Shown one piece after another: positions 5,197 through 9,368 of a stretch of 10,514 bases of DNA. The translations under genes and the position numbers were made by a program. Numbering within the stretch: position 1 is the first letter of the stretch; every line of letters begins with the position of its first letter. The notes under the pieces were generated by a model. It was not told the DNA's origin. It worked only from the letters and a program-made list of their open reading frames with translations, and did no database searches. Source of the DNA: Bacteroidales bacterium (GTDB lineage Bacteria > Bacteroidota > Bacteroidia > Bacteroidales > GCA-2748055). The DNA is taken from the NCBI GenBank assembly GCA_023135025.1, contig JAGLTY010000043.1, forward strand, positions 1 to 10,514, given 5' to 3'.

Positions 5197-5547
5197 ATGA
5201 GCAACAAGGAAAAACCTCCAAAAAAGAGCCCCACCAGTGAACCCCGGATGGAATCACTGGAGATCGGAAGTGCTTTGTATACAACCAGGCTCACTTCCAA
5301 GTTCAGGAACAGGGAGTTATGGCAGAAGCCTGATAAGAGGATAATCGAAGCTGTAATCCCCGGTCTCATTCAGAGGATCATGGCCAAAGAGGGGGATGAG
5401 GTGGCTGCCGGCACTCCGCTCCTGATCCTGGAGGCTATGAAAATGAGAAACGAGATACTTGCACCGGTTGGCGGAGTGGTCAGGAAGATTCATGTCAGCG
5501 AAGGGGAGATGGTACCCAAATCTCATCTACTCATTGAGATGGATTAG
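5197..5547 (+). CDS. Biotin carboxyl carrier protein
   Basis: A 116-residue biotinyl-domain protein. The C-terminal domain (about 48-116) has the biotinylation motif EAMKM with the acceptor lysine at K82, preceded by the PG(L)I...KEGDEV..G..LLILEA pattern and followed by the matching half-domain hairpin (GGVVRKIHVSEGEMV). The N-terminal part (1-47) is charged and Lys/Pro-rich, then carries LYTTRLTSKFRNRELW, a stretch I associate with Bacteroidota acyl-CoA carboxylase carriers. It would shuttle CO2 on biotin to the carboxyltransferase encoded directly upstream. The ATG at 5197 is nine bases after that gene's stop. A second in-frame ATG at 5248 is possible but would delete only the unstructured tail. 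The stop TAG interlocks with the stop of ispE on the other strand (shared bases 5544-5547). Confidence 0.92.
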   Translation: MSNKEKPPKKSPTSEPRMESLEIGSALYTTRLTSKFRNRELWQKPDKRIIEAVIPGLIQRIMAKEGDEVAAGTPLLILEAMKMRNEILAPVGGVVRKIHVSEGEMVPKSHLLIEMD

Positions 5548-6362
5548 GCCGGCCCTTTCCAGATCACATACCTTTGAATATCTTCAGGAAGTTCCGGAAG
5601 AGTTTCGAAGATCCCGTAGAGAGATGAGCCACTGCCGCTCATGGATGCGAACTTTGCCCCGGCACTGTAAAGGGAGCGTTTCAACTCTTTCAGCAGGTGG
5701 TGTTTCTGAAAGGTGCTCTCTTCAAAGTCGTTAATTACCAGATTTTTCCATTGATTTACTGGTGCTTCGATCAATTGTCGCAGGTGCAAATCCGGAATAG
5801 CAGGGGAGAGAGCGCCATACGCTTCAGCGGTGGAGATATGAATTTCGGGAAACAGCAACACCAGGTAAAATTTATCAAGTGATACATTCACCTGGCTCAG
5901 GAGTTCACCTCTGCCTTCCATCATCATCGGAACATTGTGAAGAAAGAATGGACAATCACTGCCCAGTTGACCTGCCAGTTCTGCCACTCTTTCAGGTGGT
6001 GCGGGGGAGCTGGCCAAAAGATTCAGCCCTCTTAGAATGGTGGTAGCATTGGAAGATCCTCCACCCAGTCCGGCACCAACGGGAATCTGTTTGTGCAGGT
6101 GAATGGCTACATTGGGAAGTGCTCTTTCCGATGCCAGTAATTTCCAGGCTTTGATGCAGAGGTTCTTCTCCATATGGGCTTCAAACCGGATTCCGGACTG
6201 CGAGAAGCGTATGGGAATATCCTCTTCAGGTAGCTGATTGATCTCAATGATATCACATAGAGCAGTGGGGTACATCACCGATCGGAGGTTATGAAACCCA
6301 TCTGCTCTTCGTTCAAGGATCTGTAATCCCAGGTTGATCTTGGCAGGTGAAAAGTATATCAT
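5544..6362 (-). CDS. ispE: 4-diphosphocytidyl-2-C-methyl-D-erythritol kinase
   Basis: A 272-residue GHMP kinase that phosphorylates CDP-methylerythritol at the 2-OH, the fourth enzyme of the MEP route to isoprenoid precursors, in the cytoplasm. Motif 1 PAKINLGLQIL (6-16) carries the catalytic lysine K8. The ATP-binding GHMP motif PVGAGLGGGSSNA spans 94-106. GSDCPFF (134-140) carries the catalytic Asp, and motif 3 is MSGSGSSLYGIF (241-252). Length is normal for Bacteroidota IspE. The gene converges on the biotin carrier gene, sharing four bases at the stops, and no terminator fits between them. It is divergent from dnaB; a TATCTTTA box on the minus strand (6369-6376) just before the ATG would give a very short or absent leader. 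Confidence 0.95.
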   Translation of the reverse strand: MIYFSPAKINLGLQILERRADGFHNLRSVMYPTALCDIIEINQLPEEDIPIRFSQSGIRFEAHMEKNLCIKAWKLLASERALPNVAIHLHKQIPVGAGLGGGSSNATTILRGLNLLASSPAPPERVAELAGQLGSDCPFFLHNVPMMMEGRGELLSQVNVSLDKFYLVLLFPEIHISTAEAYGALSPAIPDLHLRQLIEAPVNQWKNLVINDFEESTFQKHHLLKELKRSLYSAGAKFASMSGSGSSLYGIFETLPELPEDIQRYVIWKGPA

Positions 6363-6368
6363 TCAACA

Positions 6369-6376
6369 TAAAGATA
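6369..6376 (-). promoter_or_regulatory. Putative -7 box for ispE
   Basis: Read on the minus strand this is TATCTTTA, one base from the Bacteroidota consensus TAnnTTTG, ending seven bases before the ispE ATG (6362). If used, the transcript would be nearly leaderless. No -33 TTTG is seen at the right distance, so this is a weak call based on position. Confidence 0.3.
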
Positions 6377-6465
6377 TTGCATTTTTCAACATTTGTTAAT
6401 TAAAACTTTGGAGGCTGTGTGCAAAAGTAACCAATGGGACCAAAGTGCCGATGAGAGTGGTTTCT

Positions 6466-6473
6466 TACCTTTA
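6466..6473 (+). promoter_or_regulatory. Putative -7 box for dnaB
   Basis: TACCTTTA is one base from TAnnTTTG and lies 19 bases before the dnaB ATG at 6493. Its distance to the ATG matches that of the tgt box to its ATG. It falls downstream of an in-frame ATG at 6445, which argues against that earlier start. No -33 element is recognised. Confidence 0.35.
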
Positions 6474-6492
6474 CAGCCCAAATCTGAAATTT

Positions 6493-8004
6493 ATGGCCAA
6501 GCAGCAAATCAGTACCCCGAAAAAGAATCCTGCCATTTCCCTTGATTATGGTAAAATACCCCCCCAGGCACTTGATCTCGAGGAGGCTGTTCTTGGAGCC
6601 ATCATGCTTGAAAAGGATGCCATTCTTTCAGTACTTGATATACTGGAGCCGCGCAGTTTTTACAAGGAGTCGCACCAGCGGATCTATGAAGTGGCTCAGT
6701 CGCTTTCCCAGGAGGAAAAGCCCATAGACCTGCTTACTGTTACCGAGGAACTAAGAAAGAATGAAAAGCTTGAAGCGGTTGGTGGGGCGGTATACATTTC
6801 GCAGCTTACTTCACGGATTGGATCAGCGGCACATCTGGAGTACCATGCCCGTATTGTGGCACAGAAATATATCCAGCGTGAGTTGATCCGTGTCTCCTCC
6901 GATATACAGGAGCGTGCTTTTGATGAGGGTACGGATGTGGATGACCTTCTGGATTTTTCTGAAAGGGAGCTGCTGAACATTGCAGAGGGTCACATCAAGA
7001 AGGAGACTATCAAGCTTAACAACCTGATCAAGACTGCTCTCGAGCAGATCGAAGAGGCAGGAAAAAGGGAGGACAGCCTGAGTGGGGTGCCCTCGGGGTT
7101 TACACGCCTCGACAGGCTTACATCCGGCTGGCAGAAATCGGACCTTGTGATCCTGGCTGCCCGTCCCTCCATGGGTAAAACAGCATTTGCGCTCTCCATG
7201 GCCAGGAACATGGCGGTGGACCACAGCCGCCCGGTGGCTTTTTTCTCCCTTGAGATGTCCTCCATCCAGCTGGTGAACCGGCTGATCATTGGGGAGACCC
7301 AACTGGCCTCGGACAAGATCAGGACGGGGCGTCTTGAGAATTATGAGTGGGAGCAGCTCGAGTATAAGATCAAGGATCTGGAGAAGGCGCCGATCTATGT
7401 GGACGACACACCAGCCATCTCCATATTTGAATTCCGTGCCAAATGCAGGAGATTGAAGCAAAAGTATGATATACAGGCCGTTGTATTAGACTATCTTCAG
7501 CTGATGACCGGGTCGAAGGATTCGGGCAGCCGGGAGCAGGAGGTAAGTAATATCTCTCGTTCTCTGAAGAGTATTGCCAAGGAACTGGATATACCCATTA
7601 TTGCATTGTCACAGCTGAACCGAAGTGTGGAAATGCGTTCCGGAAACAAGCGCCCACAGCTTTCAGACCTGCGTGAGTCAGGTGCCATTGAGCAGGATGC
7701 CGACCTGGTTCTCTTTATCCACCGTCCAGAATATTATGGCATTGATGTGGATGAGGAGGGCAACTCGCTGAAAGGGGTTGCAGAGATTATGGTGGCCAAA
7801 CACAGGAACGGTCCTACGGGTGATATTCATCTGAAATTCGTGCGGGAGTATGCCAAGTTTGTGGACATGGACGACACCCTGGCCATGGTTGACGATGACG
7901 AGAACGGTTTTACGATCTCCTCAAAGATGAATCAGGAGGGTGAAGGTTTGACCAACAATGATATTAGAATGAACAACGGTTTTGACGGACCGGTGCCGTT
8001 TTAA
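6493..8004 (+). CDS. dnaB: Replicative DNA helicase
   Basis: A 503-residue hexameric 5'-3' helicase that unwinds DNA at the replication fork and recruits primase. The N-terminal primase-binding domain (about 22-125, PPQALDLEEAVLGAIML...) is followed by a linker (about 126-190) and the RecA-like motor domain. Motor motifs are Walker A ARPSMGKTA (213-221), FFSLEM (230-235), Walker B VVLDYLQLM (340-348), SQLNR (383-387), RPQLSDLRESGAIEQDADLV (397-416) and KHRNGPTG (446-453) with the arginine finger. No intein or insertion interrupts it. Start choice: an in-frame ATG at 6445 would add 16 residues, but MAKQQISTPKKN is the more natural N-terminus and a -7-like box lies between the two. The acidic, Asn-rich tail (about 470-503) is poorly conserved in the family. 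It is divergent from ispE and ends at a hairpin terminator. Confidence 0.97.
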   Translation: MAKQQISTPKKNPAISLDYGKIPPQALDLEEAVLGAIMLEKDAILSVLDILEPRSFYKESHQRIYEVAQSLSQEEKPIDLLTVTEELRKNEKLEAVGGAVYISQLTSRIGSAAHLEYHARIVAQKYIQRELIRVSSDIQERAFDEGTDVDDLLDFSERELLNIAEGHIKKETIKLNNLIKTALEQIEEAGKREDSLSGVPSGFTRLDRLTSGWQKSDLVILAARPSMGKTAFALSMARNMAVDHSRPVAFFSLEMSSIQLVNRLIIGETQLASDKIRTGRLENYEWEQLEYKIKDLEKAPIYVDDTPAISIFEFRAKCRRLKQKYDIQAVVLDYLQLMTGSKDSGSREQEVSNISRSLKSIAKELDIPIIALSQLNRSVEMRSGNKRPQLSDLRESGAIEQDADLVLFIHRPEYYGIDVDEEGNSLKGVAEIMVAKHRNGPTGDIHLKFVREYAKFVDMDDTLAMVDDDENGFTISSKMNQEGEGLTNNDIRMNNGFDGPVPF

Positions 8005-8009
8005 AATAG

Positions 8010-8038
8010 AAGGGGCTGCCCTTTGTAGACAGCCCCTT
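8010..8038. terminator. Bidirectional hairpin terminator between dnaB and the convergent repeat-protein gene
   Basis: A perfect nine-base-pair inverted repeat, AAGGGGCTG (8010-8018) and CAGCCCCTT (8030-8038), with an 11-base loop, begins six bases after the dnaB stop. The plus strand lacks a strong T-run after the stem, but the minus strand has CTATTTT. It lies between two convergent genes and could serve both. Confidence 0.8.
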
Positions 8039-8071
8039 GTGATATATAGATGCAAGGTCTGAACTGATCGC

Positions 8072-8548
8072 CTAAAAGGCGGCAGTCATCCAGCTTTCAA
8101 TCGCGATGGTTTCGGCAGCTTCAAATGGAGTGGTCATCCAGTTTTCAATCGCGATGTTTTCAGCAGCTTCAAATGGAGTGGTCATCCAGTTTTCAATCTC
8201 GATGTTTTCACCAGCTTCAAATGGAGTGGTCATCCAGGACTCCAGGCACAGATCAGCTTCATGAACACTGCATTCAAAGGGAGATGACATCCAGCTTTCA
8301 GTGCTATACTCCTCTTCATAAACCACATCGGCCTGGTTAACAGTGTAAGAGATATATACTACAGGCTCATGGTATTCCTTTCTTGCAGTTCTCTCTGTCA
8401 GGCTCAAAAAGCCATTGACCAGATTTTCAAATCTGCTGCTTTTGGTAGTTTGACTTACAGTGATAAATTCTACCTGGCTGGTCTGCCCGAACAGGGCGGT
8501 TCCCAGTGTAACCAGTGCGGTGATTAAGATAATTTTTGTTGTTTTCAT
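8072..8548 (-). CDS. Small secreted protein with tandem W-M-T-T-P-F repeats (paralogue A)
   Basis: I do not recognise a named family. The 158-residue product starts with a signal peptide (MKTTKIILITALVTLGTALF, probable cleavage before Gln22 in LFGQ), so the mature protein of about 137 residues is exported. A middle region (about 38-76) contains FENLVNGF and PVVYISYTV. The C-terminal half is a run of acidic repeats headed E-x-W-M: ESWMSSPFE, ESWMTTPFE, ENWMTTPFE, ENWMTTPFE, and a last truncated ESWMTAAF that ends the protein. The first spacing is 19 residues, the next three are 16. The first unit region has two Cys. At DNA level three adjacent 48-bp units are nearly identical, indicating recent duplication. 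A second gene (8796-9203) is a paralogue sharing the signal peptide, the FE-L-N-F segment and the repeat motif. A sigma-54-like promoter and a conserved upstream element precede it. Function is unknown; alternating aromatic, Thr and acidic residues suggest short beta-strands, which is inference. Confidence 0.85.
   Translation of the reverse strand: MKTTKIILITALVTLGTALFGQTSQVEFITVSQTTKSSRFENLVNGFLSLTERTARKEYHEPVVYISYTVNQADVVYEEEYSTESWMSSPFECSVHEADLCLESWMTTPFEAGENIEIENWMTTPFEAAENIAIENWMTTPFEAAETIAIESWMTAAF
8091..8234 (-). repeat. Three tandem 48-bp coding repeats
   Basis: Units 8091-8138, 8139-8186 and 8187-8234 each encode a 16-residue block of the E-N/S-W-M-T-T-P-F-E-A repeat. The core TTCAAATGGAGTGGTCATCC (plus-strand reading) is identical in all three; differences are confined to a handful of bases in the remainder. 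The period is a whole number of codons, so gain or loss of units keeps frame. Identity at silent positions points to recent duplication or gene conversion. Confidence 0.9.
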
Positions 8549-8589: not shown

Positions 8590-8607
8590 TGCATAAGGCG
8601 TGCCAAA
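8590..8607 (-). promoter_or_regulatory. Sigma-54-like -24/-12 promoter of paralogue A
   Basis: On the minus strand the sequence is TTTGGCACGCCTTATGCA. It fits the sigma-54 consensus TGGCACGNNNNTTGCW with the obligatory GG-N10-GC spacing and one mismatch (A for the first T of TTGC). The -12 C at 8591 predicts a transcript start near 8579, about 31 bases before the ATG at 8548. The paralogous gene has the same TTTGGCAC block at nearly the same distance from its ATG. An alternative reading, the Bacteroidota -33 TTTG, is less likely because no TAnnTTTG follows at the expected spacing. Confidence 0.62.
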
Positions 8608-8650
8608 CTCTATAAGCAACAGTATAACAGATATATAAAGGCCATTTATA

Positions 8651-8716
8651 CAAATGTTAATAGAGAGTAATTACGAACGAAAGTGTAACAGGAGTGTACG
8701 AAAACGTACACCGGGA
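8651..8716 (-). promoter_or_regulatory. Conserved upstream element A (putative enhancer site)
   Basis: This stretch aligns without gaps to 9303-9368 upstream of the paralogue, with 30 of 38 identical bases in its core (8678-8715). The core contains two CGAAA half-sites starting at 8678 and 8699, exactly 21 bp or two helical turns apart. The second is embedded in the perfect inverted repeat GTGTACGAAAACGTACAC (8694-8711; seven-base arms, AAAA spacer). Relative to the inferred transcript start it lies at about -95 to -135, the usual place for sigma-54 activator sites. The binding protein is unknown. Confidence 0.6.
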
Positions 8717-8725
8717 ATGATTCAT

Positions 8726-8754
8726 AAAAAAACCGCCTCATCCGGGACGGTTTT
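8726..8754 (-). terminator. Intrinsic terminator of paralogue B
   Basis: Read on the minus strand: a stem AAAACCG (8754-8748) pairs with CGGTTTT (8735-8729), with further G-C pairing possible inside the loop, followed by a seven-T run (8732-8726). It begins 42 bases past the stop of the 8796-9203 gene, and separates the two paralogues into independent transcripts. It lies upstream of the conserved element that belongs to the next gene. Confidence 0.8.
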
Positions 8755-8795
8755 ATCACAAGAGTATTGGGGAAGGCAGAAACCTGTAACCTAAT

Positions 8796-9203
8796 TTACA
8801 TCCATGTGGTTGTCATCCATGTCTCAATTTCGATCTCTTCACCCGATTCAAAAGGAGCGGTCATCCACGATTCAATGATCGGCTCCGCTTCGTAGTAGCT
8901 ACTTTCGAAGGGAGATACCATCCATAATTCGATCTGCAGATCCTCTTCATATACACTGCTTTCAAAGGGTGTGGTCATCCATGCTTCAACGCCCATGTCG
9001 GTTTCAAAGGGAACAAAATATGTTCTGGTTATTACCGGGGCTTCCAATTGATCTCCGGAAGCTGTCCTGGCAGGAAATTCATTGATCAGGTGCTCAAACG
9101 TATAGAATAACATATCACTGTTATTGCGCGAAAGCAGCTGTCCGAAGCAGAGGGTTGTGAGTGCAAATCCTGCGATGCTAAGAAATATTTTTATTGTTTT
9201 CAT
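8796..9203 (-). CDS. Small secreted protein with W-M-T-T-P-F repeats (paralogue B)
   Basis: A 135-residue exported protein related to the one encoded at 8072-8548; no named family recognised. The signal peptide is MKTIKIFLSIAGFALTTLCF with probable cleavage before Gln22 (CFGQ); the Cys at 19 does not sit in a proper lipobox. The middle part has FEHLINEF (36-43) and PVITRTYFVPF, matching FENLVNGF and PVVYISYTV of the paralogue. Four repeat heads follow: EAWMTTPFE, ELWMVSPFE, ESWMTAPFE and a terminal ETWMTTTWM that ends the chain. Spacing is 19, 19 and 16 residues. The DNA of its repeats is diverged, unlike the near-identical units of paralogue A, so this copy may be closer to the ancestral form. 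The mature protein is strongly acidic with no Cys. It has its own terminator downstream and its own sigma-54-like promoter and conserved element upstream. It is divergent from the head-GIN lipoprotein gene. Confidence 0.83.
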   Translation of the reverse strand: MKTIKIFLSIAGFALTTLCFGQLLSRNNSDMLFYTFEHLINEFPARTASGDQLEAPVITRTYFVPFETDMGVEAWMTTPFESSVYEEDLQIELWMVSPFESSYYEAEPIIESWMTAPFESGEEIEIETWMTTTWM

Positions 9204-9242
9204 GGCCTTGCGTTTAATTGTTAACGTATCTGGGTATGATAT

Positions 9243-9260
9243 TCCACATTATGTGCCAAA
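9243..9260 (-). promoter_or_regulatory. Sigma-54-like promoter of paralogue B (degenerate -12)
   Basis: On the minus strand: TTTGGCACATAATGTGGA. The -24 half TTTGGCAC is identical to that of paralogue A and sits 55 bases (versus 57) upstream of the ATG, measured from the first base of TGGCAC. The -12 half reads TGG where the consensus has TGC, so the match is GG-N10-GG. The predicted start is near 9232. Support comes mainly from conservation of position and of the linked upstream element. Confidence 0.5.
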
Positions 9261-9302
9261 TTATATAACAATCAGAATATAAGCTAAATACATACTATCA
9301 GA

Positions 9303-9368
9303 CAATTGTTAAAATTTGATAATTCTGACCGAAAGTGCGACAGCTCTGTTCGAAAACGTATACCCGGT
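9303..9368 (-). promoter_or_regulatory. Conserved upstream element B (putative enhancer site)
   Basis: This is the counterpart of 8651-8716. The CGAAA half-sites begin at 9330 and 9351, again 21 bp apart; the block CGAAAACGTA (9351-9360) is identical, but the inverted repeat around it is imperfect here. The distance from the first half-site to the -24 element is 72 bp against 73 in the other copy. It lies in the 287-base divergent region before the lipoprotein gene at 9491, so it could act on either gene. Confidence 0.58.

Follow-up and report, generated by a model that had tools for sequence, protein, structure and literature searches.

The two W-M repeat genes at the end of the window (the whole 10,514-nucleotide stretch analysed here, G000:C368 in a 2.5 Mb assembly that is about 81% complete) are very probably preceded by genuine sigma-54 promoters, as judged from their -24/-12 motifs, the conservation of these motifs in related genomes and, most strongly, a palindrome that both genes have further upstream. 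The same kind of evidence makes it likely that the promoters answer to a two-component activator of the C125 type, and that the activator would co-express parts of an exporter with the W-M proteins. This end of the window holds a dnaB-like gene (assigned by eye), the two W-M genes on the reverse strand and a DUF2807 gene. The features concerned are as follows.

8072..8548, minus strand: W-M repeat gene 1, 158 aa, with a signal-peptide-like start, five WM motifs and a strongly acidic mature part.
8590..8607, minus strand: predicted sigma-54 -24/-12 promoter of W-M gene 1, one mismatch, kept in relatives, predicted start about 8579.
8674..8689, minus strand: putative proximal, degenerate site of gene 1, lying two turns of the helix (about 21 bp) away from its distal counterpart; limits approximate, set by a 21-base shift from the distal site.
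8695..8710, no strand assigned: distal activator-type site of gene 1, the perfect palindrome TGTACGTTTTCGTACA, one of three perfect copies in the assembly.
8796..9203, minus strand: W-M repeat gene 2, 135 aa, with a signal-peptide-like start, five WM motifs and an acidic mature part.
9243..9260, minus strand: predicted sigma-54 -24/-12 promoter of W-M gene 2, three mismatches, backed by the upstream site and by relatives, predicted start about 9232.
9326..9341, minus strand: putative proximal second site of gene 2, from the alignment of both upstream regions; limits approximate.
9347..9362, no strand assigned: distal activator-type site of gene 2, TATACGTTTTCGAACA, matching at 9/10 positions.

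A preliminary description of this DNA had proposed sigma-54-like motifs before both genes, and what it reported of the motifs themselves holds. Motif 1 (TTTGGCACGCCTTATGCA) and motif 2 (TTTGGCACATAATGTGGA) lie on the minus strand at 8607-8590 and 9260-9243, have the -24 half TTTGGCAC in common, and stand 57 and 55 bases from their ATGs when the count begins at TGG, or 59 and 57 from the first T. The gene 1 motif differs from the consensus TGGCACGNNNNTTGCW (TGGCACGN4TTGCW) by the single mismatch that had been claimed and is the best of the window's matches. The gene 2 motif has three mismatches, one of them at the C of the -12 GC (GG-N10-GG); the GG-N10-G core is present in both promoters. When up to three mismatches to the consensus are allowed the window contains 18 matches against 13.8 expected, and the -24/-12 score of gene 2, taken alone, does not exceed chance. 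The -24 half itself occurs three times against 0.47 expected, a number reached in 6 of 200 shuffles; the third copy falls within the frame 6445-8004, on the strand opposite to that frame.

The sequence around the motifs had been described as not conserved, which is wrong: the two upstream regions share other stretches and, 102-103 bases before TTTGGCA, the palindrome TGTnCG-N4-CGnACA. With at most one mismatch this palindrome is found in the window at these two places only, where 0.17 would be expected, and 2 of 200 shuffles reach two. Alignment of the two upstream regions reveals a weaker second site about 21 bases closer to the promoter in both genes, and this proximal site is partly conserved across the 23 W-M promoters of relatives and window considered below. 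Perfect palindromes number three in the assembly against one for the reversed control, the copies lying before W-M gene 1, in C125 between a regulator gene and a membrane-fusion protein gene, and in a C410 reading frame. The C410 copy was rejected as a regulatory target on account of its position inside that frame. Perfect palindromes precede W-M or exporter-type genes in 4/4 cases in each of G015 and G024 (exporter types judged by eye, except the fusion protein), while of the seven in G003, five of which were read, three precede such genes and two are within reading frames. Since the reversed form also occurs one to four times per genome in these three genomes, the palindrome alone is weak evidence and it is its placement that counts.

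Searching at the protein level detected W-M genes in 20 of 61 genomes; 44 matches were listed, and the loci of 30 of these were used, giving 31 frames with at least two WM units. The upstream region is cut by a contig end in five frames, leaving 26 that are testable, the window's two included; in one of those cut (L031) TTTGGCA is still visible at -55. Before 23 of the 26 testable genes TTTGGCA lies 48-60 bases from the start together with a palindrome matching at 9/10 positions or better, and the offset between the two is 102-104 in 23/23, with the palindrome at no other offset within 16-150. Among the remaining three, one keeps the palindrome but has TTTGGTA and two have neither part. Although the 23 promoters had been selected on TTTGGCA only, every one of them has both the T and the G of the -12 element; the C that follows is retained in three. 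The scan that the preliminary description had suggested thus finds TTTGGCA-N7-TG before 23/26 genes, again counting the window's two. Relatives preserve both the -24/-12 pair and the palindrome at a constant distance from each other, so the pair is more than a chance resemblance.

Two TA pairs, at -30/-29 and -7/-6 before TTTGGCA, are also kept in at least 21/23 W-M promoters and in at least 12/14 of the fusion-protein promoters, and a weaker C-W-G-N5-C-W-G pattern accompanies them (window 8607-8640 and 9260-9293, and relatives). We know of no element that matches these TA pairs and the accompanying pattern. One relative's contig (G012:C267; L021, L032) has three clustered W-M genes, two with their own promoter and site and one with neither. 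The gene order ispE, dnaB, W-M gene (by eye; window 5544-8548) recurs with other genes interspersed at loci L087 and L088, in G022, which belongs to a different genus, and in G040, which belongs to a different family.

These comparisons bear on the possibility that TTTGGCAC is a product of chance or a remnant of paralogy, and that both genes are instead read from the TAnnTTTG promoter usual in Bacteroidota. The two W-M genes are indeed paralogous, and the chance-level score of the gene 2 motif would agree with such a view. It is opposed by the fixed spacing and the invariant TG in divergent relatives, by the occurrence of the same arrangement before unrelated target genes, and by the TAnnTTTG box itself, which is missing from 20 of the 23 W-M upstream regions and sits at a different position in each of the other three. 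We therefore rejected a chance origin of the motifs on the fixed spacing, and the TAnnTTTG promoter on the rarity of its box; that either explains the motifs is extremely improbable.

The combined promoter and palindrome pattern, applied to the DNA alone, matched 52 times in 28 of the 61 genomes, and its reversed control matched once. Reduced to 48 distinct readable blocks, these comprise 26 before W-M genes and 15 before the membrane-fusion/TolC operon, which runs divergently from genes for an NtrC-type regulator and kinase, with one before a truncated W-M relative, one before the regulator gene (lacking the -12 TG) and five in no class. The W-M genes of six genomes (G018, G022, G023, G025, G036 and G040) were found in this way and had no protein-search match; the DNA module can locate W-M genes where protein similarity misses them.

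A scan of public genomes with GTGCCAAA-N85-88-palindrome returned at least 117 stretches, of which at least 20 are contigs or genes already among the relatives; they hold 120 blocks, 83 in 80 titled loci and 37 in the other 37. Taxon labels were assigned by hand, and target classes from motif rules and by eye. The same module stands before other small exported proteins, mostly in Bacteroidota among the matches listed, where 69 of the 83 blocks of titled loci are in records so labelled. Named species with W-M genes behind the module include Prolixibacter bellariivorans and Carboxylicivirga linearis. Among the 120 blocks listed, 42 precede W-M proteins, 18 YIDDIPFNT repeat proteins and 13 other small exported proteins (LPxVEIV 5, TEASLKY 5, YWIDPVVVT 2, VKYxP 1); seven precede exporter or regulator genes (L107, L174 and L181 by eye), two precede TonB-C-like proteins, and 38 fall in no class, three of these at contig ends. 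Loci that lack the -12 TG, such as L127 and L156, may be chance matches. The YIDDIPFNT family follows the same site and promoter at L094, L106, L109, L116, L126, L128, L130, L142, L146, L160, L165 and others. The LPxVEIV proteins have 54-67 residues, with the motif present once in those read whole, and L092 encodes a run of five YWIDPVVVTYD units, each of 20 residues and almost identical to the others; we take their PVVVT core to resemble a TonB box. Small exported proteins resembling the TonB C-terminal domain (by eye) follow the module at L098 and L163.

The absence of rpoN had been named as a test of the original proposal. The gene is present in the genome, with the sequence ARRTVAKYRE, the RpoN box, intact; together with the motif upstream of W-M genes in relatives this supports the sigma-54 reading of both motifs. 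Sigma-54 polymerase is held in a closed complex until an upstream-bound NtrC-family regulator loops to it and opens the complex with ATP. On this pattern sigma-54 RNA polymerase would transcribe both W-M genes from the -24/-12 sites, and an NtrC-family response regulator would bind the palindromic sites that lie in tandem some 100 bases further up, the likeliest activator being the C125 regulator with its partner histidine kinase.

The C125 regulator is of NtrC type, having a receiver, a sigma-54 interaction domain and an HTH_8 (Fis-type HTH) domain. Behind it is the start of a kinase of the relatives' type, the rest being lost at the contig end; the kinase of a relative carries HATPase_c. Divergent to the regulator gene is an operon encoding an HlyD-type membrane-fusion protein and then TolC; the operon's promoter is TTTGGCACAAAAAGTGCA, and its two sites are 21 bases from each other. 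The regulator's contact loop reads GAFTDA, and the canonical loop that touches sigma-54 is GAFTGA. Among 35 regulators read, the loop contains FTDA in 33 (AFTDA 27, SFTDA 6; L072:700-2079 included).

Of the 28 own-family genomes, 23 encode a relative of the fusion protein with at least 60% identity, in some cases as a fragment at a contig end. The fusion protein, W-M matches and the pattern are all missing from G001 and G010 (82-83% complete); in G021 the fusion protein is present with no W-M or pattern match, in G009 the fusion protein and a pattern match with no W-M match, and in G020 W-M matches at contig ends with no close fusion protein. Co-occurrence of W-M and fusion-protein genes is therefore not perfect. 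In 26 genomes that carry the module, represented by 29 loci picked from 80 for a small exported protein after the site, so that the rates are biased, the best regulator match has 66-72% identity in 12, 51-56% in 13 and 38% in one. Only the 12 at 66-72% are clear, because the list also contains paralogues with up to about 51%. Exporter-type genes adjoin 23 of the 26 best-match regulator loci (by eye), and related sites also accompany paralogous regulators close to MacB-type genes. In view of this imperfect co-occurrence and of these paralogues, the C125 regulator with its partner histidine kinase is the likely, though not proven, activator of the W-M promoters.

A different activator of the same promoters, namely the NtrC-type regulator of C75, C441 or C9, or a sharing of the sites by several regulators, is on present evidence rather unlikely. 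The genome has four strong PF00158 matches of seven listed, the MacB-type genes of relatives lie near what appear to be other regulators with palindromes of the same consensus (by eye), and the C441 intergenic region contains CG-N4-CGAACA, all of which would suit such an arrangement. Among these regulator regions, however, the perfect palindrome is found only at C125, and the palindrome at C75 is spaced differently, TGTTCAG-N3-CTGAACA (by eye). Against the whole explanation built on the C125 regulator stand the seldom kept C of the -12 element, the three testable W-M genes that lack one or both parts of the module, the GAFTDA loop, the regulator paralogues, the imperfect co-occurrence and an assembly only about 81% complete.

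The function of the W-M proteins may be approached through the genes that share their switch. Pfam reports no family above cut-off for them, and the AlphaFold model of W-M protein 1 (mean pLDDT 53.8, pTM 0.16) gives no claimable fold. As the fusion-protein/TolC operon is also preceded by this arrangement of sites and promoter, the W-M proteins would be co-expressed with exporter parts, probably in a cell-envelope response. That acidic exported repeat proteins would be made with parts of an exporter suggests such a response, with the proteins as its cargo or partners. The sequence itself shows the promoters, the sites with their spacing and conservation, rpoN, the regulator, the beginning of the kinase and the site common to both targets; we infer transcription from the promoters, binding by the regulator, a signal, and a place for the W-M proteins as cargo of, or beside, a MacAB-TolC-type exporter. 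In the own genome the exporter genes under the site are the fusion protein and TolC only, and the relatives' ABC ATPase has distant homologues only (the best by E-value at 40%, a fragment at 47%). In relatives, ABC-ATPase-like and MacB/FtsX-permease-like genes also carry the site (by eye).

It is possible, if short of probable, that the W-M proteins are Sec-exported cargo subsequently moved over the outer membrane by a MacAB-TolC-type system. Their co-regulation with the fusion protein and TolC, and in relatives with the ABC-ATPase-like and MacB-like genes just mentioned, is consistent with this, and export by MacAB-TolC is reported for a small protein that Sec delivers to the periplasm, in the available part of one account (PMC5985334). 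However, the W-M genes lie outside the exporter operon, a pump gene was not seen beside the fusion protein in the operons read, and co-regulation is no proof of transport. Held with equal tentativeness is the view that the W-M proteins, being acidic, remain within the envelope and bind or decoy cationic antimicrobials or misfolded proteins beside an efflux pump. The mature proteins of the 23 promoters have a net charge of -11 to -35 (with a crude signal-peptide cut), and the N-terminal hydrophobic stretch of the kinase looks like two helices with almost no loop (one merged segment in 3/4 kinases, two segments in 1/4), which would suit this role, as would the association of BceS-type kinases with MacB-related transporters described in the part of that account available (PMC5985334). 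It is weakened by the module's non-W-M targets, some types of which are not acidic. A broader reading, and an improbable one, is that of a Bacteroidota-wide peptide system, in which a sigma-54 two-component circuit would make Sec-exported multi-copy peptide precursors, with tandem WMTTPFE-, YIDDIPFNT- or YWIDPVVVT-type units, along with a MacAB-TolC-type releaser; the repeats would act outside the cell as signals or binders and may feed back on the kinase. Under the preferred explanation, a C125-type activator at sigma-54 promoters, nameless small exported proteins come to share one switch, along with a candidate pair for sensing and a machine as partner, and with these their role becomes testable.

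No description of this regulon was found in the literature searched, in the parts of the sources available and with most subscription papers outside the scope of the search. The arrangement resembles the sigma-54/NtrC class as generally understood in its GG-N10-G core, the presence of rpoN, palindromic sites in tandem roughly 100 bases ahead of the promoter and a candidate activator that combines receiver, AAA+ and Fis-type HTH domains; it differs in that the C at -12 is mostly lost, the loop is GAFTDA and the targets are exported repeat proteins. The sigma-54 promoters of Flavobacterium psychrophilum lie before envelope-stress genes and before genes for exported proteins whose function is unknown, and this regulon, also of Bacteroidota, is similar in having -24/-12 elements before exported proteins, whereas the portion of its account available makes no mention of activator sites, of a link to an exporter or of W-M repeats (PMC9723704). 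Sigma-54 control has been predicted for FtsX/MacB-type ABC permeases in Bacteroidia, which places the same transporter class under sigma-54; the small repeat proteins and the activator site found here are absent from that prediction, as far as its accessible text goes (PMC12316311). The BceAB-BceS and MacAB-TolC systems, in the accessible part of their description, likewise tie a two-component system to a MacB-type transporter and include a fusion protein and TolC, but here it is sigma-54, an NtrC-type regulator and repeat proteins that would be joined to such a machine (PMC5985334).
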